This document shows positions 10,994 through 59,103 of a DNA stretch of 64,000 nt, piece by piece. The stretch comes from Acidovorax sp. A79. Its GTDB lineage: Bacteria > Pseudomonadota > Gammaproteobacteria > Burkholderiales > Burkholderiaceae_C. How positions within the stretch are numbered: position 1 is the stretch's first letter; every line of letters starts with the position of its first letter. The notes under the pieces are model-generated. The model saw only the letters and a list, made by a program, of their open reading frames with translations, was not told where the DNA came from and ran no database searches. A program made the position numbers and the translations under genes. The stretch lies in the NCBI RefSeq assembly GCF_041154505.1, contig NZ_AP028672.1, forward strand, positions 5,248,501 to 5,312,500, given 5' to 3'.

Positions 10994-11647
10994 ATGCGTA
11001 CCTTCGGACTCTCCGAATTCCTTTTCATCCTGCAGGCCGCGCAGTGGACACTGGCGCTGTCGGCCATTGCCTTCGTCGGCGGGGCGCTGCTGGGCCTTGT
11101 GGTGGCGCTGTCGCGCACGTCCGAGAGCGCCGTGGCGCGCAATGCGTCGCGCGTGTTCATCCAGGTGTTTCAGGGCACGCCGCTGCTGCTGCAGCTGTTT
11201 TTGATCTTCTTCGGCGCGCCGGTGCTGGGGCTGGACATCAACCCCTGGGTGGCGGCGGGCGTGGCGCTGGTGCTCAACAGCGCGGCGTTTCTGGCCGAGA
11301 TATGGCGCGGCTGCATCGAGGCGGTGCCGCGCGGCCAATGGGAGGCCGCGCAGGCCCTGAACCTGAGCTACATCAACCGCATGCGCTTCGTGGTGCTGCC
11401 GCAGGCCTTCAAGATCGCGCTGCCGCCCACCGTGGGCTACACGGTGCAAATCATCAAGGGCACATCGCTGGCCGCCATCATCGGTTTCACCGAGATCACG
11501 CGGGCCGGGCAGATCATCAACAACGCCACCTTCCAGCCGCTGCATGTGTTCACCACCGTGGCGGCGCTGTACTTCGTGATCTGCTGGCCGCTGTCGCTGC
11601 TGGCCGCGCGCATGGAGCGCAAGCGGGCCCGGGCGCTGGCGCGCTGA
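10994..11647 (+). CDS. PAAT-family ABC transporter permease (second)
   Basis: A 217-aa inner-membrane permease homologous to the one before it. [20 protein letters not shown] and [23 protein letters not shown] mark the HisMQ family. An AAGGAG ribosome-binding site overlaps the stop codon of the upstream permease, so the two are translated as a pair. Neighbouring sugar-acid genes suggest the cargo may be a sugar acid or amino sugar rather than an amino acid (inference). Confidence 0.9.
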
Positions 11648-11728
11648 CGGCATCGCCGCCAACACCAACAGCGTCTTCGTTCATTCATTTTTTATCTCTT
11701 GTTCATAACCACTACCTGGAGACATGCC

Positions 11729-12535
11729 ATGACCTTTTCCCTGCACCGCCGCACCGTCACCACCGCCTTGGCCGCACTGGGCCTGGGCGCCGCGCTCACG
11801 GCTTTTGCGCCGCTGGCCTCGGCACAGTCCGTGGCCGACATCAAGAAGAAGGGCGAGCTCACCATCGGCATGCTGGTGGACTTCCCGCCTTACGGCACGA
11901 CCAACGCGCAGAACCAGCCCGACGGCTACGACGCCGACGTGGCCAAGCTGCTGGCCAAGGAGCTGGGCGTCAAAGCCAACATCGTGCCCGTCACCGGCCC
12001 CAACCGCATTCCCTTCCTGCTGACCAACAAGGTCGACGTGCTGGTGGCGTCGCTCGCCATCACGCCCGAGCGCGCCAAGCAGGTGCAGTTCTCGCAACCC
12101 TATGCGGCCGCCACCATCGTGCTGTACGGCAAGACCGGCAGTGCCATCAAGAGCGCGGCGGACCTGAAGGGCGTGCGCGTGGGCGTGGCCCGTGCCAGCA
12201 CGCAGGACGTGGCCGTGACCAAGGCCGCGCCCGAGGGCACCGAAATCCGCCGCTTCGACGACGACGCATCGGCCATGCAGGCACTGATCTCCGGCCAGGT
12301 CGATGCCATCGGCTGCTCGGTCACCGTGGCCGCGCAGATCGCCAAGCGCGTGCCCGCCAACACCTTCGAGAACAAGTTCAACCTGCTGCAGCAGGCCATG
12401 GGCATTGCCCTGCGCCCCGGCCAGGACGAGTTGACCAAGGCGGTGAACGACTTCGTGGTGCGCAACACGGCCAACGGCGAGTTGAACAAGCTGTACCAGA
12501 AGTGGCTGGGCGCGGATCTGCCCAAGCTGCAATAA
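11729..12535 (+). CDS. periplasmic substrate-binding protein of the PAAT-type ABC transporter
   Basis: A 268-aa precursor with a Sec signal peptide (RRTVTTALAALGLGAALTAFA, cleavage likely after PLASA). It is followed by an SBP_bac_3 domain: GELTIGMLVDFPPYGTTN, GYDADVAKLLAKELG, DVLVASLAITPERAKQVQFS. The ATG at 11729 has GGAG 8 bases upstream and yields a clean signal peptide; a start at 11699 would spoil it. The binding pocket keeps the general family framework, so substrate cannot be read from sequence. Confidence 0.9.
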   Translation: MTFSLHRRTVTTALAALGLGAALTAFAPLASAQSVADIKKKGELTIGMLVDFPPYGTTNAQNQPDGYDADVAKLLAKELGVKANIVPVTGPNRIPFLLTNKVDVLVASLAITPERAKQVQFSQPYAAATIVLYGKTGSAIKSAADLKGVRVGVARASTQDVAVTKAAPEGTEIRRFDDDASAMQALISGQVDAIGCSVTVAAQIAKRVPANTFENKFNLLQQAMGIALRPGQDELTKAVNDFVVRNTANGELNKLYQKWLGADLPKLQ

Positions 12536-12583
12536 CCCATATCGCTTGAGCGTGAACCCCAGCCACCCCAGGAGCCTTTGACA

Positions 12584-13372
12584 ATGACGGACGCAGTCAC
12601 GACGACGAAGACCACCGCCGGTGCACCCCCCATCATCACGATGGAGGGGGTCAACAAGTGGTACGACAGCTTTCAGGTGCTGACCGACATCGACCTGTCG
12701 GTGCGGGCCGGCGAGCGCATCGTGATCTGCGGGCCGTCGGGCTCGGGCAAGTCCACGCTGATCCGCTGCATCAACCGGCTGGAGACGGTGCAAAAGGGCC
12801 GCATCGTGGTCGACGGCATCGAGCTGACCGCTGGCGGCAAGAACGTGGACGCCGTGCGTGCCGAGGTGGGCATGGTGTTCCAGCAGTTCAACCTGTTCCC
12901 GCACCTCACCATCCTTGAGAACTGCACGCTGGCACCCATGCGATCGCGCGGCATGGGCAAGGCGGAAGCGGAAGAGGTCGCCATGAAGTACCTCACGCGC
13001 GTGCGCATTCCCGAGCAGGCGCACAAGCACCCCAGCCAGCTGTCGGGCGGGCAGCAGCAGCGCGTGGCCATTGCGCGCGCGCTGTGCATGGCCCCCAAGG
13101 TGATGCTGTTCGACGAACCCACGTCGGCGCTGGACCCGGAGATGGTCAAGGAAGTGCTGGACACCATGATCGGCCTGGCCGAGGACGGCATGACCATGCT
13201 GTGCGTGACGCACGAGATGGGCTTTGCGCGCAGCGTGGCCGACCGCGTGATCTTCATGGCCGACGGCAAGATCCTGGAGCAGGCGCCGCCCGCGCAGTTC
13301 TTCGGCCAGCCGGAGCATGAGAAGACGCGCCAGTTCCTCGGCCAGATCCTGAGCTCCCACCACGCGCACTGA
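12584..13372 (+). CDS. ABC transporter ATP-binding protein (PAAT type)
   Basis: A 262-aa ATPase with Walker [11 protein letters not shown]-loop [13 protein letters not shown], signature LSGGQQQR, Walker [15 protein letters not shown] and H-loop CVTHEMGFA, all intact and typical of the GlnQ/HisP group. The ATG at 12584 has AGGAG 9 bases upstream; a TTG two codons earlier is less likely. It powers the two permeases encoded upstream. Confidence 0.93.
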
Positions 13373-13428
13373 GGCCGTGGTGGCCGCACGTTGACGAAAG
13401 CCCGGCTGACGGGCTTGAAAGAACATCC

Positions 13429-14175
13429 ATGAAGGTATTGATCTCCCTGTCCTCCTTCGGCGCGGCCGAAACGGGACGCCACGGCCAGCTGTGGTGCACC
13501 GACCTGGCCCGCCAGGCGGGCGCCGACGGCGTGGAAGTGCGCGGCGAGCTGCTGCGCGACGCGGCCACCGAGCTGCCCGCGCTGGCGGGCCTGGCCGCGG
13601 TGTATTCCAGTCCCGAGGGCCTGTGGACCGTGCAGGGCCAGTTGGACGAAGCCGCCCTGCAGCGCGGCATTCATGCATCGCAGGTGCTGCACGCGCCGCG
13701 CCTGAAGATGTCCATCGGCGGCTTTGGCGCGCGGTCCGAGGCGTCGCTGCAGCGCCTCAAGGCGCTGCTGGCCGCCACCCCGCAGGTGGAACTGGTGATC
13801 GAAAACGACCAGACCGCCACGGCCGGCACGCTGGCCGCCCTGCAGGCGTTCTTTGCCGCGCAGGCGCAGGCCGGGCTCGACCTGGGCATGACCTTCGACA
13901 TGGGCAACTGGCACTGGCAGGGCGAGTGCCCGCTGCAGGCCGCTCAGGCCCTCGCGCCCCATGTGCGCTACGTGCACTGCAAGGGCGTGCAGCGCCTGCC
14001 GGCCAAGTGGATCGCGGTGCCGCTGGCGGAGTCGGTGGCGCCCTGGCGCGCCGTGCTGCGCGCGCTGCCCGCCGATGTGCCGCATGCCATCGAGTACCCG
14101 CTGGTGGGCGACGACCTGGTGGCCGTCACGCGCGGGCAGGTGGACTTCATCCGTGCGGTGCGGGGTGCTGCATGA
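13429..14175 (+). CDS. sugar phosphate isomerase/epimerase family TIM-barrel protein
   Basis: A 248-aa xylose-isomerase-like (AP_endonuc_2) barrel. It has metal-site features of the family: ADGVEVRGELL near strand 2, LVIENDQT, FDMGNWHW with its conserved Asp and His, and YVHCKGVQ. It probably isomerises or epimerises a keto-sugar or sugar acid. Its stop overlaps the start of the kinase gene by 4 bases (ATGA), linking it to sugar-acid breakdown. The exact reaction is not determinable. Confidence 0.8.
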   Translation: MKVLISLSSFGAAETGRHGQLWCTDLARQAGADGVEVRGELLRDAATELPALAGLAAVYSSPEGLWTVQGQLDEAALQRGIHASQVLHAPRLKMSIGGFGARSEASLQRLKALLAATPQVELVIENDQTATAGTLAALQAFFAAQAQAGLDLGMTFDMGNWHWQGECPLQAAQALAPHVRYVHCKGVQRLPAKWIAVPLAESVAPWRAVLRALPADVPHAIEYPLVGDDLVAVTRGQVDFIRAVRGAA

Positions 14176-48643: not shown

Positions 48644-50212
48644 TCAGGCGGTGGCGGCGACCCCGATGCCCTTGAACTCCCCGGTGGCGATGCGCTTTTG
48701 CCACTCGGCCGGGCCGGTGATGTGCGCGCTGGTGCCGCCGGAATCCACGGCCACGGTCACGGGCATGTCCACCACGTCGAACTCGTAGATAGCCTCCATG
48801 CCCAGGTCTTCGAAGCCCACCACCTTGGCGGTCTTGATGGCCTTGGAGACCAGGTAGGCGGCACCGCCCACGGCCATGAGGTACGCGCTCTTGTGGTTCT
48901 TGATGGACTCGATGGCCACCGGGCCGCGCTCGGCCTTGCCGATCATGGCGATGAGCCCGGTCTTCTCCAGCATCATGTCTGTGAACTTGTCCATGCGCGT
49001 GGCGGTGGTGGGGCCGGCGGGGCCCACGGCCTCGTCCTTGACCGGGTCCACGGGGCCCACGTAGTAGATGACGCGGTTCGTGAAGTCCACGGGCAGCTTC
49101 TCGCCCTTGGCCAGCATGTCCTGGATGCGCTTGTGCGCGGCGTCGCGGCCGGTGAGCATCTTGCCGTTGAGCAGCAGCGTGTCGCCGGGCTTCCAGCTGG
49201 CCACTTCTTCCTTGGTCAGCGTGTCCAGGTTAACCTTCTTGCTCTTGTTGTAGTCGGGTGCCCAGTTCACGTCGGGCCACAGGTCCAGGCTGGGCGGCGT
49301 GAGGTAGACGGGCCCCGAGCCGTCCAGCACGAAGTGCGCGTGGCGCGTGGCGGCGCAGTTGGGGATCATCGCGATCGGCTTGCTGGCCGCGTGCGTGGGG
49401 TACATCTTGATCTTGACATCCAGCACAGTGGTCAGGCCGCCCAGGCCCTGCGCGCCGATGCCCAGGGCATTGACCTTCTCGAACAGCTCCAGGCGCAGCG
49501 CTTCGACCTTATCGAGCGCGGGGCCGCCGGTCTTGGCGGCTTCGGCCTTGGCTTGCAGCTCGTACATATCGAGGTCGTCCATCAGGCTCTCCTTGGCCAT
49601 GAGCACGGCCTTTTCCGCTGTGCCGCCGATGCCGATACCCAGCATGCCGGGCGGGCACCAGCCGGCGCCCATGGTGGGCACGGTCTTGAGCACCCAGTCC
49701 ACCACGCTGTCGCTGGGGTTGAGCATGTACATCTTGGACTTGTTCTCCGAGCCGCCGCCCTTGGCCGCCACGGTGATGTCCACGGTGTTGCCGGGCACGA
49801 TCTCGGTGAAGATCACGGCGGGCGTGTTGTCCTTGGTGTTCTTGCGGTCGAACTGCGGGTCGGCCACCACGCTGGCGCGCAGGGTGTTGTCGGGGTGGTT
49901 GTAGCCGCGGCGCACGCCTTCGTTGATGGCGTCGTCCAGGCTGCCCGTGAAGCCGTCCCAGCGCACGTCCATGCCCACCTTCAGGAACACGTTGACGATG
50001 CCGGTGTCCTGGCAGATGGGGCGCTGGCCGGTGGCGCTCATCTTGCTGTTGGTCAGGATCTGCGCGATCGCGTCCTTGGCCGCCGGGCTTTGCTCGCGCT
50101 CGTAAGCGCGGGCCAGGTGGGCGATGTAATCGGTGGGGTGGTAGTAGCTGATGTACTGCAGCGCGGCGGCTACGGATTCGATGAGATCGTCCTGGCGGAT
50201 GGAGGTGGTCAT
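48644..50212 (-). CDS. fumA: fumarate hydratase class I (iron-sulfur)
   Basis: A 522-aa [4Fe-4S] hydro-lyase interconverting fumarate and malate in the TCA cycle. Conserved text includes RPICQDTGIVNVFLKVG, GWCPPGMLGIGIGGTAEKAV, IPNCAATRHAHFVLDG and, in the C-terminal domain, YYVGPVDPVKDEAVGPAGPTT. Cys in the first, second and third motifs are candidate cluster ligands. murI starts 146 bases downstream of its stop on the same strand. A class II enzyme is encoded 3.5 kb away. Confidence 0.94.
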   Translation of the reverse strand: MTTSIRQDDLIESVAAALQYISYYHPTDYIAHLARAYEREQSPAAKDAIAQILTNSKMSATGQRPICQDTGIVNVFLKVGMDVRWDGFTGSLDDAINEGVRRGYNHPDNTLRASVVADPQFDRKNTKDNTPAVIFTEIVPGNTVDITVAAKGGGSENKSKMYMLNPSDSVVDWVLKTVPTMGAGWCPPGMLGIGIGGTAEKAVLMAKESLMDDLDMYELQAKAEAAKTGGPALDKVEALRLELFEKVNALGIGAQGLGGLTTVLDVKIKMYPTHAASKPIAMIPNCAATRHAHFVLDGSGPVYLTPPSLDLWPDVNWAPDYNKSKKVNLDTLTKEEVASWKPGDTLLLNGKMLTGRDAAHKRIQDMLAKGEKLPVDFTNRVIYYVGPVDPVKDEAVGPAGPTTATRMDKFTDMMLEKTGLIAMIGKAERGPVAIESIKNHKSAYLMAVGGAAYLVSKAIKTAKVVGFEDLGMEAIYEFDVVDMPVTVAVDSGGTSAHITGPAEWQKRIATGEFKGIGVAATA

Positions 50213-50456
50213 GGCGGTTCGTGGGGGAGTCTTTTGTGGAGAACGCAAACGCGTTCCTGTCCTGCCCGCCGCACACGCCGCCTGTCGACCAGCGCTGGGC
50301 CGCAAACCGCGCTGCCGATGGCAGGCGGACCGTATTTTGACAGACCCCCGCTGGCGCCACCTTGCGCCCGGGCAAAGGCGGGCGCCGCCGGTCGGCCATT
50401 GGCGTCTGCACGGGGGCGCCAGATACCCCCATGGGGTGGTGTTCGGTCCGCCGTGT

Positions 50457-50897
50457 TCACGGCGCGCCTGTTCCCTCCCCGTCCTCCGGTTCTTCGTCGG
50501 TGTCGCTGCTGCCCGGCAGGTCGTCCGCGCTCAAGGGGGGCGCGCCGGCCTGCCGGTTGCCGCGCCCTGGCGTCTCGCGCTCGGTATCCACGGCGTCGCG
50601 TTCGTCATCCTGCATCCCTTCATCCGGGCCGCCGCCGTCACCGGGACCGCCAGCTTGCATGGTTTCCACATGGTCGGGGAGGATGTCGCGGGCGGTGGGC
50701 TGCGGGTCGGGCTCCACGCTGCCGCGCTCGCCCGTGCCAAAGCGGTCGGTGTCGCTGTCCGATTCCGTGCTGTAGGCCCCTGCGCTGTCGCTGCCGGAGT
50801 CGGAGGCGTCACTGGGCCCCAGGCTGTCGATGCCGGTAGCACTGTGGGCGGGGGGAAGGTTGTCGGCGTCGATGCCGAGAAGGCTGCTGGTGGCCAT
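50457..50897 (-). CDS. acidic, probably disordered hypothetical protein
   Basis: A 146-aa protein from ATG 50897, which has GGAG 10 bases upstream. It is dominated by Ser, Asp, Glu, Gly and Pro (DASDSGSDSAGAYSTESDSD, DTDEEPEDGEGTG) with very few hydrophobic residues, so it is probably unfolded alone. Only the N-terminal SLLGIDADNLPPAHSATG looks like a conserved motif. I do not recognise a family. It is transcribed toward fumA, 244 bases upstream of it. Confidence 0.65.
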   Translation of the reverse strand: MATSSLLGIDADNLPPAHSATGIDSLGPSDASDSGSDSAGAYSTESDSDTDRFGTGERGSVEPDPQPTARDILPDHVETMQAGGPGDGGGPDEGMQDDERDAVDTERETPGRGNRQAGAPPLSADDLPGSSDTDEEPEDGEGTGAP

Positions 50898-51092
50898 GGT
50901 CTGCTCCGATGGTTGAGGAGGGGGCGCGGGCTCCATGCGGATCCGCGGCGCGGAGGCGGAAACACCGCCGCAATGCCATCGTCGGCGTGCACGGCGCTGC
51001 CCCGCGTCAGGCAGCGCTGACATGGGTGTCGTCCATCTTCGCCGGTACCTTCCCAAGGCCTTGAAAAGGTGCCCGTGCGCTGGTTGCCGCGC

Positions 51093-53255
51093 TCAGAAGT
51101 CCGGCAGCGTCCCGATGACGGACGGGGTGAAGTCCGCGCTGCCCACGGGCTTTTCGCCCTGCGACCAGGCCAGCAGTGTGTCTGCCGGCATGGGGCGGGC
51201 GTAGAAGAAGCCCTGCAGCTCGTCACAGCCCATGCCCAGCAGGATGTCGCGCTGGCCGCTGGTCTCCACTCCCTCGGCCACCACGCGCAGGCCTAGGGCA
51301 TGCGCCAGGCTGACCACGGCGGCCACGACGGCGCGGGCGTCCTCGCTGCTTTCCAGGTCGTTCACGAAGCTGCGGTCGATCTTGAGTTGCTGCGCGGGCA
51401 GCTGGCGCAGGTAGTTCAGGCTGGAGTAGCCGGTGCCGAAGTCGTCGATGGACAGGAACACGCCGATGCGCGCCAGCCCGTCGAAAGTGCGCTGGGTGGC
51501 CTTGATGTCTTCCATGGCCACGGATTCGGTGATTTCGCACAGCAGCTGCGAGGCATCCACCCCGTGGCGCAGCAGGGCCTGCCCGATGCGCTCGGCCAGC
51601 CCGCTTTCGCGCAGCTGGTGCACCGACAGGTTGATCGCCACGCGCATGCGCATGCCGCTGCGCGCCCACTCGGCGACCTGGCGGCAGGCCTCGTTGATGA
51701 CCCAGTTGCCCAGCCGCCCGATCAGGCCGAAGCGCTCGGCCAGCGCGATGAACACCACCGGGCTCACCATGCCATGCTTCGGATGGTTCCAGCGCAGCAG
51801 GGCCTCCACGCCGCTGATCTGGCCGCGCGTGCCGTCGATCTTGGGCTGGTAGTGCAGGGCCAGTTCGCCCCGGTCCAGCGCCTGGCGCAGGTCGTTCTGC
51901 AACTCCAGCTGCTCGGATGCATCGGAGCCCATGTGGGGTTCGAACAGCGCATAGCAGCCGCCGCCCGCGCGCTTGGCGGCGTACATGGCGGCATCGGCGT
52001 TGGCCACGAGCTTGTTGCGGTCACCGTGGTCGGGGTGCACCACGACGCCGATGGAGCAGGCGATCTGCACCTGCTTGCCCGACACCTCGAACGGCTGCGA
52101 CAGGGAGGACAGCACCCGGTTGGCCACCGTCACGCAGTCGGCCACGTCGCTCACGTCCTCCAGCAGGATCAGGAATTCGTCGCCCCCCACGCGCGCCACG
52201 GTATCGCCCTCGCGGGCTTCGCGGCGCAGCCGGTCGGCCGCGCTGCGCAGGATCACATCGCCCGCGGCATGGCCGAACGAATCGTTGATGGGCTTGAAGC
52301 CGTCCAGGTCCACGAACAGCACGGCCAGGCGGTCCTCCACGCGGTGGTGGTTGGTGCGGTCCAGGCGCAGCAGCGCGTGGATGAGGCGGTCTTCGAACAG
52401 CAGCCGGTTGGGCAGGCCGGTGAGGGCATCGGCGAATGCGCGTTTTTGCAGTTCGTCGTTGGCCGCCTGCAGGCGGGTGTTGCTGTCCTGCAGCGACCGC
52501 GTCAGACGCTCGGCCGTGGCTTGCAGCCGCGCGTCCAGGATGGAGGTGAACAAGGTGCTCACCAGCAGCATGCCGGTGGCCATGAGCACCATGGCCGTCA
52601 GGCCCGGGCCGCCGAGCTCTCCCGCGCTCAGGCACACGGAGCCCATGGCAAAGCTGGCCGCCGCCATGCCGGTGTAGTGCATGCCGCAGATGGCCACGGC
52701 CATCACGAACGATGCCGCCAGCTGGTAGGGCAGGCGCTGGCTGGGCCGCACCCGGCGCAGCAGCTTGAAGATCAGCAGGGCCGTGGCCGAGGCCAGCACC
52801 GCGATCAGCACCGACAGCGCCACCAGCGGCAGGTTCCACACGATGCCTGGCGCCATTTCCATGGCCGCCATGCCGATGTAGTGCATGCCGCTGATGCCGG
52901 CCCCCATCACCAGCGCGCCCAGCGCCAGTTGCATCCGGCCAAAGTGTGTGCGGCTTGCGAGCTGCAGGGCCATGGCGGAGGCGGCCACGGCGGCCAGCCA
53001 CGACAGCAGCGTGAGCCCGCCGGCAAAGCCGATCTCGATGGGCAGCCGGAAGGCCTGCATGCCCAGGAAATGCATGGACCAGATGCCCGTGCCCATGACG
53101 ATGGACCCTGCGGCCCACCACGCCAGGCCGACGCGGCGCTGCGCGGTGCGCACCCGCCGCGCCAGGTCGAGCGTCACGTACGACGCGAGCATGGCAATGG
53201 CAAAGGAGGCGGCCACCACGAACAGGTTGTAGCTGGAGGGCATGAACGTGTTCAT
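51093..53255 (-). CDS. MHYT-GGDEF-EAL cyclic-di-GMP signalling protein
   Basis: A 720-aa inner-membrane protein. Seven hydrophobic helices carry three MHYT repeats: MHFLGM (61-66), MHYIGM (124-129) and MHYTGM (192-197), proposed in this family to hold copper and sense oxygen, CO or NO. A short coiled coil leads to the GGDEF domain (intact GGDEF 357-361) and the EAL domain (Glu484-Ala-Leu, and DDFGTGYSS). Both active sites are complete, so it could make or break c-di-GMP, with the balance set by the sensor. Confidence 0.95.
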
Positions 53256-53709
53256 GGTGCGAAAGGTGCTGGGGTTGGAAGGGCAGGGTGCATCGGGCGC
53301 GCGGCGCCGTCAAGGGCCTGGGCAGACATGCGGCGAAAGCCTGCAGGGCAGGGGCCGTGCGCGACGGAGTGTAGCCAGGGGCACGAAGCCGCGCCGGAGT
53401 GGGGGTTTGCCCTGGCTGGGCCGGGTCGGGTCGGGGGGCCGGGCGGATGTCCCCACCTGCAGTGGTGGCGGTGCGGGCTGTTTCCTTCCGGGGCAAGGCT
53501 TGCCGCACACTGACTGCTCCACGCTCCCGCACGGGCCATACAAGTCTGTAAATGAGAATGGTTTGTTTTTGCATTATGCTGCCGGTCGCGCCGACATTCC
53601 CCGGCCGCACCCTTTTCCGGCCAGACGCCGGCCCGCCGCCGTGGCCTTCCCGCCACGCCGGGCGTCCGGCGTCCGCCCGCCTGTTGTTTCACTTGGAGAA
53701 CCACTGCCC
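53256..53709. other. 454-base intergenic region between the GGDEF-EAL gene and fumC
   Basis: Divergent promoter region. The left 250 bases are GC-rich, with no credible gene. The last 170 bases hold a short AT-rich block with the Fur-like site at 53548-53566. An in-frame extension of fumC to 53242 is open but is not coding-like. Confidence 0.6.
53548..53566 (+). promoter_or_regulatory. Fur box-like site upstream of fumC
   Basis: GTAAATGAGAATGGTTTGT matches the 19-bp Fur consensus in 11 positions, including the AATGA-AAT core. It lies 144 bases before the class II fumarase start, in the only AT-rich patch of the region. The downstream genes are iron-related, which adds weight. Confidence 0.5.
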
Positions 53710-55095
53710 ATGACCTCCCGTACCGAACGCGACACCTTTGGCCCCATCGAGGTCCCCGCCGACAGGCTCTGGGGCGCGCAGACGCAGCGCTCGCTGCAGA
53801 ACTTCGACATCTCGGGCGAGCAGCAGCCGCGCGAGATCATCAAGGCCCTGGCGCAGGTCAAGCGCGCCTCGGCCGTGGTCAACCAGGCCCTGGGCCTGCA
53901 GGACGCGAAAAAGACCGAGGCCATCGTGGCCGCCGCCGACGAAGTGATCGCCGGCAAGCACCCGGGCGAGTTCCCGCTGGTGGTGTGGCAGACGGGCTCG
54001 GGCACGCAGACCAACATGAACGTGAACGAGGTGCTGGCCAACCGCGCCAGCGAGATCCTGGGCGGCGAGCGCGGCGAAGGCCGCCTGGTGCACCCCAATG
54101 ACGATGTGAACCGCAGCCAGTCGAGCAACGACGTGTTCCCCACCGCCATGCACGTGGCCGCCGTGGAAGCATTCACGCACAGGCTCCTGCCCGCCATCGC
54201 CAGGCTGCGCGCCACGCTGGCGAAGAAGGCGCAGGATTTCGACGGCATCGTCAAGATCGGCCGCACCCACCTGCAGGACGCCACCCCGCTCACGCTGGGC
54301 CAGGAGTTCTCGGGCTATGTGGCCCAGCTCGACCATGGCGAGCGCCACGTGCGCGCCGCGCTGCCCCACCTGTACGAGCTGGCGCTGGGCGGCACGGCCG
54401 TGGGCACGGGCCTGAACGCGCCCAAGGGCTATGCCGAGCAGGCCGCCGCCGAGCTGGCGCGCCTCACGGGCCTGCCCTTTGTCACCGCGCCGAACAAGTT
54501 CGAGGCGCTGGCCTCGGTGGATGGCCTGGTGCACGCCCACGGAGCCCTCAAGACCCTGGCCGCCAGCATGATGAAGATCGCCAACGACGTGCGCTGGCTC
54601 GCCAGCGGCCCGCGCAGCGGCATCGGCGAACTCAGCATCCCCGAGAACGAGCCCGGCTCGTCCATCATGCCCGGCAAGGTCAACCCCACGCAAAGCGAGG
54701 CGGTGACCATGCTGGCTGCCCAGGTGTTCGGCAACGACGTGGCCATCAACTTCGGCGGTGCCTCGGGCAACTTCGAGCTCAATGTCTTCCGCCCCATGGT
54801 GGCCCACAACTTCCTGCAGAGCGTGCGCCTGCTGGCCGACGGCATGGTGAGCTTCAACGACCAGTGCGCCGTGGGCATCGAGCCCAACCGCGAGCGCATC
54901 ACCGAGCTGGTGGACCGCTCGCTCATGCTGGTCACCGCGCTCAACACCCACATCGGCTACGACAAGGCCGCCTACATCGCCAAGAAGGCGCACAAGGAAG
55001 GCACCAGCCTGCGCGAAGCTGCTGTCGCCTCGGGCCACGTCACGGGCGAGCAGTTCGACCAGTGGGTGGTGCCGGGCAACATGGTGGGCCGCTGA
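53710..55095 (+). CDS. fumC: fumarate hydratase class II (iron-independent)
   Basis: A 461-aa member of the fumarase/aspartase superfamily. [40 protein letters not shown] and the signature [16 protein letters not shown] (with its mobile active-site Ser) are intact. It does the same reaction as the class I enzyme encoded nearby but needs no iron-sulfur cluster. It probably serves under iron limitation or oxidative stress, in line with the Fur-like box. A sigma/FecR fusion gene starts only 25 bases after its stop. Confidence 0.95.
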
Positions 55096-55120: not shown

Positions 55121-56476
55121 ATGGGCACGGGGGCACTGCCGTCATCTCCGCTGCTCGCGAGCTTTCGCGACAGCTACCGCGACCTGCTGCGCTACCTCTC
55201 GCACCGCACCGGCAATGCCGATGACGCGCGCGACGTGGCGCACGACACCTGGCTGCGCCTGGCCGACATGGACCTGCGCGGCGAACGGCCCGCGCTGTGC
55301 GAGGCCGAGGCGCGGGCCTATGTATTCGCCATGGCGCGCAATCTCGTCATCGACCGGCAGCGCCACGCGGGCGTGGTGGCCCGTCATGCGCTGGCCCAGG
55401 CCCATGCGGACTCGGGCGCCGGCACGGCGGCGCGCCACGGCCCCGATGCCGCCGAGGCCCTGATGTACCGGCAGGCGGTGGACGCGGTCGAAGCCGCGCT
55501 CGCCGCCGTGCCAGAGCGCGCGCGCCAGGTCTTCCTGCGCCACCGCATCAACGGCGAAGGCCAGGGCGCGCTCGCGGCCGAATACGGCATCTCGCGCAAC
55601 ATGGTCGAGCGCGACATGATGCTCGCCATGGACCGCGTGCAGGCCGCCATGGAGCAGTGGCACGCGGCGGGCCGCAGCTCTCCTGTGGCACCGGCGTCGC
55701 ACCACGAAGCCCGCCGCACCGGCCGCCGCCGCTCGCTGGCGGCATTGCTGAGTTTTGCCGCAATGGGCGTGGGTGGCGTGGGGGCCTGGCAATGGTGGCG
55801 CACCGCAGTCGCGCAGTGGCAGCAGGTGGCACGCACCGGCCAGGGGCAGACGCTGCGCCACCCGCTGCCCGACGGCAGCCGCATCACGCTCGACGCGCAA
55901 AGCCGCGTGCACATGGCGTACTACGCCGGGCAGCGCCGCGTGAGCCTGCTGGCCGGGGCGGCGTTCTTCGACGTGGTGCGCGACGCGGACCGCCCCTTCG
56001 TGGTGGAGGTGCCCGGTGGCGCCGAGGGGGGCGCCGCGCGCGTGACCGTGCTGGGCACGCGCTTCGGCGTGGAGCACGGCGCCAGCGGGGTCGATGTGCA
56101 GGTGGAGTCGGGCCGCGTGCGGGTGGAGTCGCTGGGGCCGGATGGCCAGCCCCTGGCGGTGCGGGAACTCGCGGGCGGACAGGCGCTGCGGGTGCGGCCG
56201 GGCGAACCGCTTGCCCAGGCCGTCGCCCCGGTGCACGAGGCCGCCGCCTGGCGCCACGGCGTGGTGGCTTTTGCCGATGCGCCGCTGGCCGAGGCCGTGG
56301 ACCGCCTGCGCCGCTACCTGCCGCGCCCGGTTCAGGTGGAGGCCGGTGCCGCCGCGCTGCGCCTGTCGGGGCAGGTGCGCATTGCACAGGCCGAGGACTT
56401 CGTGCGGGCACTGCCTTCCGTCGTGCCGGTGCAGGTGCGGCTCGTGGCGGGGCAATGGCGGGTGGCCGCGCGCTGA
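55121..56476 (+). CDS. ECF sigma factor / FecR-type anti-sigma factor fusion (IutY-like)
   Basis: A 451-aa single chain. Residues about 10-82 are a sigma-70 region 2 (FRDSYRDLLRYLSHRTGNAD, ARAYVFAMARNLVIDR). Residues about 118-175 are region 4 (AVPERARQVFLRHRINGEGQ, AAEYGISRNMVERDMM). A basic linker leads to one membrane helix (205-226), and then a periplasmic FecR domain (about 240-335, LPDGSRITLDAQSRVHM, VTVLGTRFGVEHG) and a C-terminal receptor-signalling part (about 372-445). Separate FecI and FecR proteins are the rule. The Pseudomonas putida IutY hybrid, which must be cleaved by proteases to free the sigma part, is the known parallel. It precedes its likely receptor partner gene. Confidence 0.9.
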   Translation: MGTGALPSSPLLASFRDSYRDLLRYLSHRTGNADDARDVAHDTWLRLADMDLRGERPALCEAEARAYVFAMARNLVIDRQRHAGVVARHALAQAHADSGAGTAARHGPDAAEALMYRQAVDAVEAALAAVPERARQVFLRHRINGEGQGALAAEYGISRNMVERDMMLAMDRVQAAMEQWHAAGRSSPVAPASHHEARRTGRRRSLAALLSFAAMGVGGVGAWQWWRTAVAQWQQVARTGQGQTLRHPLPDGSRITLDAQSRVHMAYYAGQRRVSLLAGAAFFDVVRDADRPFVVEVPGGAEGGAARVTVLGTRFGVEHGASGVDVQVESGRVRVESLGPDGQPLAVRELAGGQALRVRPGEPLAQAVAPVHEAAAWRHGVVAFADAPLAEAVDRLRRYLPRPVQVEAGAAALRLSGQVRIAQAEDFVRALPSVVPVQVRLVAGQWRVAAR

Positions 56477-56523: not shown

Positions 56524-56585
56524 GGTGAAAGTGGCCGCCAGCGCTTGCTCCATAAGCGCTGAAAGCTATTGTTTTAATAGCTTTT
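56524..56585 (+). repeat. dispersed intergenic palindromic repeat, copy B
   Basis: GTGGCCGCCAGCGCTTG, then CATAAGCGCTGAAAGCTATT, then a second AATAGCTTT arm. The GCGCTT/AAGCGC and AAAGCTATT/AATAGCTTT pairs make two adjacent stems. It lies between the sigma/FecR gene and the receptor gene. Confidence 0.75.
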
Positions 56586-56667
56586 TGGTCGATCGGGGCG
56601 CTGGCAGGCGCGCCGCCATTCAGGAAGTGGGAGGGCCCATTCGTTGTAGCGGGGAAAGGACTTCACC

Positions 56668-59103
56668 ATGAACCGACAACGGCCCCGCACCCCGGCCCCC
56701 CGGCCTTCCGGCCCCGCACGCACCTCCCGTCCTGCCCGCCACGCACTCGCAGCCGCCATGCTGGCCATGGCGTCGCTGCAGATGGACATGGCCACCGCCC
56801 AGGGCGCACCGGCCCCGGCGGCCTTTGACATTGCCGCCCAGCCCCTGCCTGAGGCGCTGGCGCAATTCGCCCGGCAGTCGGGCGTGCAGCTGATCTACCC
56901 GCCCGAGCTGGTGCAGGGCCGGCATGCCCAGCCCGTGCAGGGCGCGCGCAGCCCCGAGGCGGCGCTGGCCGAACTGCTGCGCGGCAGTGGCCTGCGCATG
57001 CGCCGCGACGGCGCCACCCTGGTGCTGGAACGCGCTCCGGCCGACGGCGCCGCCGCGCTGCCCGAGGTGCGCGTGGCCGCCGAGGCCGAGGTCGAAACCG
57101 CCACCGGCCCCGTGCGCGGACTGGTGGCCCGGCGCAGCGCCAGCGCCACCAAGACGGACACGCCGCTCATGGAAACGCCGCAGACCATCACCGTGGTCAC
57201 GGCCGAGCAGATGCAGGTGCAGCGCGTGCGCGACCTGGAGCAGGCGTTCGAATACTCTGCGGGCGTGCGTCCCGTGTCCGGTTACAGCGGTTCGTACGAC
57301 GCGATCTACAGCCGGGGCTTCTGGGCCGATGCGCGCAATGGCAGCCTGTTTGCCGACGGGCTCAAGGTGTCCGACAACTCCTGGGCCTCGGGCAAGCAGG
57401 AGCCGTACGGGCTGGAGCGCGTGGAGCTGGTCAAGGGCGCGGCGTCGGTGCTGTACGGCATGTCGGCGCCCGGCGGCGTGCTGGCCACGGTGAGCAAGCG
57501 CCCCACGGCCGATGCCGTGCGCGAGGTGGTGGTGGAGGCGGGCACGTATGCGCACCGGCAGGTCGGCGTGGACCTGGGTGGCGAGGTGGCACCGGGCAGC
57601 GACTGGACCTGGCGCCTCACCGCGCTGGCGCGCGACAGCGAGACACCCGTGCGTCCGCTGCAGGACGACGCGGTGTACATCGCGCCCGCGCTGCGCTGGC
57701 AGCCGTCGGCCGCCACATCGCTCACCCTGCTGATGCAGCACCAGAAGCGCCGCCTGGGCTATTCGTACCCGCTGCCGCGGGTGGGCACCCTGTTGCCCGG
57801 CCCCGGCGGCCAGCGCATCGCGCGCTTTCGCTTCGTGGGCGAGCCTGCCTACGACCGGCAGGATGTGCGGCAGACCACGCTCACCGCCTTGTTCGAGCAC
57901 CAGGTGAACGAGCATGCCACCCTGCGCCAGGGGCTGCGGTTCTTCGACTCCGAGGCGGACATCTTCTTCACCAACGCCAGCGTGGAGCCGGCTGCGCCCA
58001 CGCGCGTGCAGCGCCGCGCCATCGACGAGTTCGAGCGCGTGCGCGGCTTCTCGTCCGACACGAGCTGGCAGCAGCGCTGGCGCAGTGGCGAGGTGGAGCA
58101 CACGCTGATCGCCGGCGTGGACTACACCCGCTACCGCTCGGAATCGGAGTGGTACGCGCGCACGCTCGCCCCGCTGGATTTGTACCAGCCGCAATACGGC
58201 GCCGTGCCCGGCGCGCCCGCGCCGATGGCGTTCTCGGACACGTCGCAGCGCTGGCAGGCGGGCCTGTATGCGCAGGACCAGATCAAGCTGGGCGAGCGCT
58301 GGGTGGTGCTGGCCGGCCTGCGGCACGACTGGAGCGACGACCGCTCGCGCCCGTTCTTCACGGCCGCGCCGTGGTCGGTGGAGCGCACCGATGCCTTCAC
58401 CGGCCGCGTGGGCGTGGTCTACCTGGCGCCGGGCGGCTGGGCGCCGTTCGCGGGCTACAGCCAGTCGTTCCAGCCGCAGGGCGGCACGGACGCGCAGGGC
58501 CGGCGCTTCAAGCCCACCGAGGGCGAGCAGTTTGAACTGGGGGTGCGGTGGCAGCCCAACGGCAGCGAGGGGATGATGCTGTCGGCCGCCGTGTACGACC
58601 TGCGCCAGGACAACGTGCTCACGCCCGATCCCGCCCATCCGCAGTTCAGCGTGCAGACGGGGCAGGCACGCTCGCGCGGGGCCGAGCTGGAGGTGCGCGG
58701 GCAGGTGGCGCGCCACCTGGAGGTGGTGGGCGCCTATGCCTACACCGACCGCCGCATCACGCGCAGCAACCTGCCGGACGAAGTGGGCCGCCGTGCGGCC
58801 GAGGTGCCCTACCACCAGGCCTCGGTCTGGGGGCACTACCGCCTGGCGGCCTGGGGCCTTCCGGCGTGGACGCTGGGCACGGGCTTGCGCTACACCGGCG
58901 ACATGGTCGATGGCACGGCCAGCGCCTACCGCATCCCGGGCTATGGACTCGTCGATGCCATGCTCGCCTGGCAGGACGGGCCGTGGCGCGTGGCGCTCAA
59001 CGTGCGCAACCTGTTCGACAAGGCGTTCCTGATCTGCAACGGCGCCCACTGCCGGGACGGCAGCCCGCGCACGGCCACGCTTTCGGCCGCGTACCGCTGG
59101 TGA
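56668..59103 (+). CDS. TonB-dependent siderophore receptor with STN signalling domain
   Basis: An 811-aa outer-membrane receptor. A signal peptide (cleavage near ATAQG, about residue 46) is followed by an STN domain (about 52-105, AAQPLPEALAQFARQSGVQL) that contacts FecR-type proteins. A plug domain with METPQTITVVTAEQMQVQRV and a 22-strand barrel end in aromatic Trp (SAAYRW). The STN domain and the adjacent sigma/FecR fusion predict cell-surface signalling: ligand binding outside turns on transcription of the receptor. The ligand is probably a ferric siderophore; its identity is unknown. Confidence 0.93.
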   Translation: MNRQRPRTPAPRPSGPARTSRPARHALAAAMLAMASLQMDMATAQGAPAPAAFDIAAQPLPEALAQFARQSGVQLIYPPELVQGRHAQPVQGARSPEAALAELLRGSGLRMRRDGATLVLERAPADGAAALPEVRVAAEAEVETATGPVRGLVARRSASATKTDTPLMETPQTITVVTAEQMQVQRVRDLEQAFEYSAGVRPVSGYSGSYDAIYSRGFWADARNGSLFADGLKVSDNSWASGKQEPYGLERVELVKGAASVLYGMSAPGGVLATVSKRPTADAVREVVVEAGTYAHRQVGVDLGGEVAPGSDWTWRLTALARDSETPVRPLQDDAVYIAPALRWQPSAATSLTLLMQHQKRRLGYSYPLPRVGTLLPGPGGQRIARFRFVGEPAYDRQDVRQTTLTALFEHQVNEHATLRQGLRFFDSEADIFFTNASVEPAAPTRVQRRAIDEFERVRGFSSDTSWQQRWRSGEVEHTLIAGVDYTRYRSESEWYARTLAPLDLYQPQYGAVPGAPAPMAFSDTSQRWQAGLYAQDQIKLGERWVVLAGLRHDWSDDRSRPFFTAAPWSVERTDAFTGRVGVVYLAPGGWAPFAGYSQSFQPQGGTDAQGRRFKPTEGEQFELGVRWQPNGSEGMMLSAAVYDLRQDNVLTPDPAHPQFSVQTGQARSRGAELEVRGQVARHLEVVGAYAYTDRRITRSNLPDEVGRRAAEVPYHQASVWGHYRLAAWGLPAWTLGTGLRYTGDMVDGTASAYRIPGYGLVDAMLAWQDGPWRVALNVRNLFDKAFLICNGAHCRDGSPRTATLSAAYRW

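Follow-up and report, generated by a model that had tools for sequence, protein, structure and literature searches.

A sigma factor-FecR fusion in Acidovorax sp. A79, probably an IutY-type regulator, and its fused relatives without a recognisable anti-sigma domain

The closest described counterpart of the protein analysed here is IutY of Pseudomonas putida, in which cytosolic sigma2-sigma4 regions, one membrane helix and a FecR-like periplasmic part form a single polypeptide, encoded beside a signalling receptor (PMC5411451, PMC9249621). IutY is termed unique in both papers. It is released by the proteases Prc and RseP and is activated by truncation (PMC5411451), and an excess of the signalling domain of IutA blocks its proteolysis (PMC11637429). 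In ECF243, the group to which IutY belongs, 'only certain members' are marked for proteolytic activation (PMC8999054); fused members beyond IutY may therefore already be tabulated. The FecI/FecR, FoxI/FoxR and PupI/PupR systems, by contrast, each consist of two proteins. Residues 9-59 of Escherichia coli FecR bind FecI and render it active (PMC9249621), residues 1-80 of FoxR give the size of its N-terminal domain, and for the corresponding domain of PupR a role in tethering the sigma factor at the membrane has been suggested (both PMC11637429). Finally, ECF48, ECF52 and ECF53 of Actinobacteria are also sigma factors with a membrane regulator of their own, but their extensions carry a zinc-finger domain, and by this description they stand apart from the present fusion (PMC8999054).

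The stretch of DNA analysed (the window) comprises 64,000 nucleotides of the Acidovorax sp. A79 contig NZ_AP028672.1. The features under discussion are, in window coordinates:

53551..53569, + strand: Fur-box-like site before fumC, AATGAGAATGGTTTGTTTT, agreeing at 13/17 positions with a box that fits this genome
53710..55095, + strand: fumC, encoding a class II (iron-free) fumarase and probably opening the operon (TIGR00979 above cut-off; start by comparison with relatives)
55121..56476, + strand: sigma-FecR fusion gene, 451 aa (open frame, Pfam, relatives)
55166..55369, + strand: sigma region 2, aa 16-83 (Pfam PF04542, Sigma70_r2, above curated cut-off)
55484..55633, + strand: sigma region 4, aa 122-171 (Pfam PF08281, Sigma70_r4_2, above curated cut-off)
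55676..55726, + strand: disordered linker without DUF4880, aa 186-202 (pLDDT below 50 in the AlphaFold model)
55724..55729, + strand: twin arginine, Tat-like, aa 202-203, just before the membrane helix
55733..55798, + strand: membrane helix, about aa 205-226 (hydropathy; model helices 203-214 and 218-229)
55829..56122, + strand: FecR periplasmic domain, aa 237-334 (Pfam PF04773, above curated cut-off)
56054..56059, + strand: Gly312-Thr313, at the motif position of the FoxR/FecR GT self-cleavage site, invariant in 57 rows
56246..56470, + strand: STN-like C-terminal subdomain, aa 376-450 (AlphaFold model and match to PupR 6OVK)
56619..56646, + strand: TTCAGGAAG-N14-CGTTG, probably the promoter that the sigma factor targets; 21 bases separate its end from the receptor start
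56668..59103, + strand: TonB-dependent receptor gene (Pfam STN, plug and barrel domains)
56884..57033, + strand: STN domain of the receptor, aa 73-122

Counted from the first start codon that follows a stop, the frame at 55121-56476 (+ strand) stays open for 451 aa. A sequence-only reading had placed sigma regions, a single membrane helix and a FecR domain in this one frame, and Pfam, hydropathy and the structural model all confirmed it, with positions differing by a few residues. The most hydrophobic 19-residue stretch of the fusion is aa 205-223. In the AlphaFold model (20-row alignment, mean pLDDT 85.1) the sigma part forms two helical domains, confidence is very low at aa 186-206, and the periplasmic part is rich in β-structure and ends in an STN-like subdomain. 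The best Foldseek match of the model in the PDB was the cell-surface-signalling domain of PupR (6OVK, TM-score 0.86 by target length), followed by a putative anti-sigma factor of Parabacteroides and by ECF sigma factors. We collected 116 homologous loci (L007-L122, some genomes being represented twice), of which 70 (58 unique) contain a fused frame and 46 do not. The set of 57 fused proteins used below consists of the window and 56 of the 58 unique loci, L095 (the window itself) and L014 (same species) being left out. Sigma region 2, sigma region 4 and FecR were matched in all 57, and the GT sequence motif (G312-T313 in the window) is invariant among them; the periplasmic domain of the fusion thus has the GT self-cleavage motif of the FecIR/FoxIR type. 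With FecI/FecR, FoxI/FoxR and PupI/PupR the fusion shares this motif, the periplasmic FecR fold of PupR, an STN receptor and, apparently, the type of receptor promoter, but it has neither the separate proteins nor the DUF4880 domain of the canonical FecIR/FoxIR systems. With IutY it shares the one-polypeptide architecture, the adjoining STN receptor and the lack of a separate anti-sigma N-domain, which bears out the analogy to the P. putida protein drawn in the sequence-only reading; the comparison rests on the published description (374 aa for IutY, PMC5411451 and PMC9249621).

The fused gene starts 25 bases behind fumC, which ends at 55095. None of 200 shuffles of the stretch upstream of fumC scored as high as the Fur-box-like site at 53551..53569, although this site fits well in its first half only (13/17), which counts against the Fur reading. 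The palindrome AATGAGAATNATTNTCATT, which we take to be the Fur box, had 22 strand-wise matches in the genome when as many as 3 mismatches were allowed (the reversed control had 1), and several of these stand, by eye, before receptor-like, FecR and ExbD-like ORFs. A stricter pattern derived from the fumC box matched the genome at that one site only; a longer Fur consensus of 19 bases failed to separate the fumC lineages described below (10-13/19 versus 8-11/19) and was replaced by AATGAGAATNATTNTCATT. When the 250 bases upstream of each fused gene were scored against 100 shuffles, a Fur-like box was found at p≤0.05 in 47/57 loci, with about 3 expected, and in 39 of these 47 it begins 22-64 bases before the estimated start; because many of the loci are related, neither these counts nor those for the promoter (below) are independent. 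The ten loci without a box of their own are seven fumC-linked loci of the window's clade (L014, L008, L007, L019, L046, L097 and L099), the separate fusions L119 and L120, and L108. All seven fumC-linked loci carry the box before fumC instead, at 12-15/17 positions and with at most 3/200 shuffles equalling it (the boxes of L008, L007, L097 and L099 were read in the longer stretches L015, L016, L246 and L247, respectively). In these seven the fused gene starts within about 40 bases of fumC, the starts being partly estimated. L026, which belongs to another part of the main clade, also follows fumC; its box sits in the gap between the two genes, with none before fumC. The linkage was seen in the window's clade and in L026 only.

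Where the fusion follows fumC in the window's clade, then, the Fur-like box is swapped from the fused gene to fumC. The place behind fumC had been called unusual; it recurs in seven distinct loci of this clade and tracks the place of the box. The linkage might nonetheless be accidental, the fused gene having a promoter of its own within fumC. We consider this unlikely: two relatives of the same clade, L017 and L018, do have no fumC in the fetched stretch, as such a view would have it, but precisely these two carry their own box, which is missing behind fumC in 7/7 loci where fumC bears one.

The box before fumC is also present without the fusion. Two kinds of fumC occur in the genus (L123-L152), 15 loci being 94.5-100% identical to the gene of the window and 15 being 82-91% identical. 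In the close lineage a box precedes fumC (at most 5/200 shuffles) in 14/15 loci, and since 10 of these 14 have no fusion, the fumC box is independent of it; in the distant lineage the box was found in 0/14 scorable loci. A class I fumarase gene is present in the fetched stretch of 14/15 distant-lineage loci. In the window itself, a class I (iron-sulphur) fumarase gene and the class II fumC flank a GGDEF/EAL c-di-GMP gene, all three within 7 kb (48644-55095). Six fusion-free congeners (L126, L128, L129, L130, L132 and L137) have a presumed GGDEF-type gene, fumC and a presumed CRP-like gene together, the CRP-like gene lying 114-712 bases past fumC; the two-gene unit of fusion and receptor occupies this fumC/CRP-like interval in the window. 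As for other species, fumC of P. aeruginosa is stated to be Fur-regulated, and that of Burkholderia cenocepacia, which has no Fur box, increases under low iron (both PMC7377471).

The receptor encoded downstream is nearest in sequence to the solved receptors for enantio-pyochelin, ferrioxamine (FoxA) and ferrichrome (FhuA), from which one might guess at a siderophore of one of these kinds. The search for homologues and their receptor linkage that the sequence-only reading had proposed gave a TonB receptor match on the same strand downstream in 58/58 unique fused loci (tblastn with the receptor of the window). The first matched base lies within 0.71 kb of the fused gene in 56 loci and 1.6-2.1 kb away in two (Vandammella L041 and Allofranklinella L044). 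The STN-bearing partner that had been claimed is likewise borne out: STN and plug domains are present in the receptor of the window and in all 55 receptors scanned, this set being the window and 54 others, some cut by the locus end, after L017 and L035, in which the automatically chosen ORF was a fragment, had also been left out. Behind the fusion of Rhodoferax sp. OV413 (L046, about 11499-13785) the receptor gene matches in two pieces and its frame ends early, so that it may be broken.

Between fused gene and receptor, TTCAGGAAG-N14-CGTTG has its single exact match in the genome; once 2 mismatches are tolerated the genome has 38 matches and the control 21, and weaker sites therefore mean little. 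The looser pattern [CG]AGG[AG][AT]-N12..17-CGT[TC] follows 31/57 fused genes (0.7 expected), occurs inside 0/57 of them (1.1 expected) and follows 19/46 split fecR genes (0.5 expected); it was derived by eye from the fused genes and is biased towards them, the split genes having had no part in deriving it. Fused and split systems therefore appear to use one kind of promoter. The pattern was not found after the remaining 26/57 fused genes, which counts against reading it as the target promoter. We regard 56619-56646 as the probable target promoter of the fused sigma factor. A palindromic element, AGCGCTT...AAGCGCT, lies at 56538-56559, in the interval that separates the fusion from its receptor gene; this pattern has 1 match in the window and 21 across the loci scanned, and similar elements are intergenic in the genus and its neighbours (L014, L015, L097, L099, L128, L132 and L138). 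Scans for sigma-70 promoters and terminators yielded nothing useful.

Two arginines and a hydrophobic residue precede the membrane helix in 57/57 fused rows. In split FecRs the twin-arginine pattern was found in 17/44 and RR alone in 29/44, the scanned stretch being badly placed in several rows; the motif, first considered as a mark of fusion, was dropped as such because split FecRs carry it too. In work by Passmore from 2020, translocation of FecR was reportedly Tat-dependent. The periplasmic part of the fusion is probably exported through the Tat system.

The sequence evidence shows the architecture, the missing domain, the occurrence of fused proteins in separate lineages, the receptor linkage and the conserved DNA sites. 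We interpret the protein, with a probability of roughly 0.8, as an IutY-type cell-surface-signalling regulator, in which a silent, membrane-anchored sigma factor is freed by proteolysis and switches on the receptor. Fur binding, co-transcription, Tat export, proteolysis, siderophore and sigma target are presumptive in this reading. Under iron starvation, Fur would leave the fumC promoter, and fumC and the fused gene would then be transcribed together. The fusion would enter the inner membrane, its periplasmic part by way of Tat, with the sigma domain tethered and inactive. When a ferric siderophore bound the neighbouring receptor, the STN domain of the latter would cease to shield the FecR/STN-like part of the fusion, which would be cut by Prc-like periplasmic proteolysis and then by RseP, and the released sigma domain would start transcription from the receptor promoter at 56619-56646. 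The genome contains one match to RseP (323 bits) and one to Prc (328 bits), both above cut-off. Without Prc, chromosomally encoded IutY has no activity, and the split Fox and Fiu systems lose only part of theirs (PMC5411451); the site-1 protease of the present fusion may thus be Prc or another enzyme.

The tethered sigma factor might instead work at the membrane uncut, with the FecR part altering its conformation or clustering only. IutY, and even its cytosolic sigma domain, is reported to be tightly associated with the membrane (unshown data of the authors, PMC5411451), and cleavage of the present fusion is a step that we infer. Such a mode of action nevertheless seems decidedly improbable: the GT motif and the FecR fold are conserved, all truncated IutY variants needed RseP for activity, with the exception of one without the membrane segment, and even that variant lost some activity without RseP (PMC5411451). 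Release by proteolysis, as for IutY, is the reading that we retain.

Where the fusion departs most clearly from split systems is in what lies between its sigma and membrane segments. DUF4880 was detected (E≤0.01) in 0/57 fused proteins and in 45/46 split FecRs; Sigma70_r2 was matched by a single one of these 46 'split' frames. In the split FecR of L011 the domain occupies aa 42-79 of 400, and DUF4880 would correspond to the cytosolic N-terminal sigma-binding domain of split FecR. The spacing that corresponds to W180-R203 of the window is 2-34 residues in the 57 fused proteins (median 14; 22 in the window), and is thus too short for an anti-sigma domain of about 80 residues. The label 'FecR anti-sigma domain' given to the C-terminal part of the protein in the sequence-only reading was therefore somewhat inexact, since only the membrane anchor and the periplasmic sensor remain. 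The fusion appears to have no recognisable sigma-binding anti-sigma domain, and tethering or occlusion in cis would be its means of inhibition. One could also imagine that another FecR protein of the genome restrains the fused sigma factor in trans through its anti-sigma domain, given that the genome has 4 other FecR matches and that one locus (L001) has separate sigma and FecR matches; as fusions lacking DUF4880 are found in separate lineages and each is followed by a receptor of its own, this is very improbable, and inhibition in cis is preferred.

Fused proteins of this kind are far from confined to the window. The best 120 of 499 homologues listed all have FecR and at least one sigma domain of Pfam. 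In the GTDB family, 47 of 399 genomes match at E≤1e-40; at least 28 of the 399 have an unbroken full-length match (the genome of the window and one of its species included), and in the remaining 19 of the 47 the FecR part alone was matched. These figures, like those for the class and for Pseudomonas, are lower bounds, the 4 best candidates having been scored per genome. The named fused loci come from Acidovorax, Variovorax, Xylophilus, Rhodoferax, Comamonas, Delftia, Corticibacter, Vandammella, Azoarcus, Thauera and Pseudothauera; fused homologues are found in many Comamonadaceae and Zoogloeaceae. The view that such a protein is unusual in a beta-proteobacterium is overturned by these surveys. 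Within the genus the distribution is patchy: an 80% orthologue was found in 2/35 same-genus genomes, and fused relatives at 46-50% identity in 3/35, one of which also holds the 80% orthologue. A class-wide sample of 369 genomes (4 best candidates each) gave no full-length match besides that of the window. Among the matches listed for 398 Pseudomonas genomes there is at least one unbroken fusion (L219); the sequence of IutY was not found among them, and L219 is not established as IutY. L219 has 421 aa, no DUF4880 match and, by eye, no twin arginine, and is flanked by a PepSY_TM gene and an STN receptor. Six further genomes searched with a sigma-FecR profile showed no unbroken full-length match among the matches listed; one of them (that of Pseudomonas sp. 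MRCP1333, L077) has 65 matches to this profile against 15-28 in the other five. Relative to IutY, then, the present family differs in its spread over many Comamonadaceae and Zoogloeaceae, in the twin arginine of 57/57 members and, in the window's clade, in its place behind fumC. A sequencing or assembly error that joined two genes, the outcome that would have undone the reading, is excluded for practical purposes, because another assembly (Acidovorax sp. sif1233, L014, 99% identity), two congeners at 80% (G015 and G020) and dozens of relatives carry the same unbroken gene.

In a tree of 113 periplasmic domains, 54/58 fused rows form one clade (100/99) without any split row. The fused L119/L120 and L051 are nested in a clade of split FecRs (100/96), L051 as sister to split L085 (100/98), and L219 stands apart from the main clade on a long branch. 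The sigma parts agree: the closest relative of that of L051 (60%) is the sigma factor encoded separately in L085, and the sigma parts of L119 and L120 are nearest, besides each other, to separate sigma factors. All three proteins are among the 57 without DUF4880. A single clade of all fusions was rejected by the AU test (p=0.003 with L219; p=0.002 without it, with 3 changes), a rejection that is overstated in that both tests were made after inspection of the tree. The number of changes is itself blind to gain versus loss; we read the changes as gains of fusion because losing a fusion would require regaining the anti-sigma domain. Fusion together with loss of the anti-sigma domain has thus probably recurred several times, which suggests that tethering alone restrains the sigma factor.

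The protein is of a known kind that is more widespread than the sequence-only reading had supposed. The literature searched, which covered few subscription journals, contained no description of the fused family of Comamonadaceae and Zoogloeaceae. What is new is the fusion in separate lineages, with the anti-sigma domain absent in every case scanned, and the exchange of the Fur-like box with fumC; the strongest new point is that fusion and loss of this domain go together. On balance we lean towards a general form of this relation: at each fusion of a FecI-type sigma factor with FecR the anti-sigma domain would be lost, tethering would suffice to silence the sigma factor, the freed sigma factor would work without the domain, and the anti-sigma/pro-sigma domain would be dispensable.

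If the fumC linkage is what it seems, a single iron-controlled transcript would encode both an iron-free metabolic enzyme and a switch that senses siderophores. For the family as a whole, a large group of proteins with fused members in separate lineages and without an anti-sigma domain makes the question of FecR silencing testable. Tethering has already been proposed for split proteins (PMC11637429); the fused lineages would, if our reading is true, be natural deletion experiments on the anti-sigma domain of FecR, and they sharpen the question to whether the sigma factor is silenced because FecR binds it or because FecR retains it at the membrane, for which the fused proteins would be a clean test.
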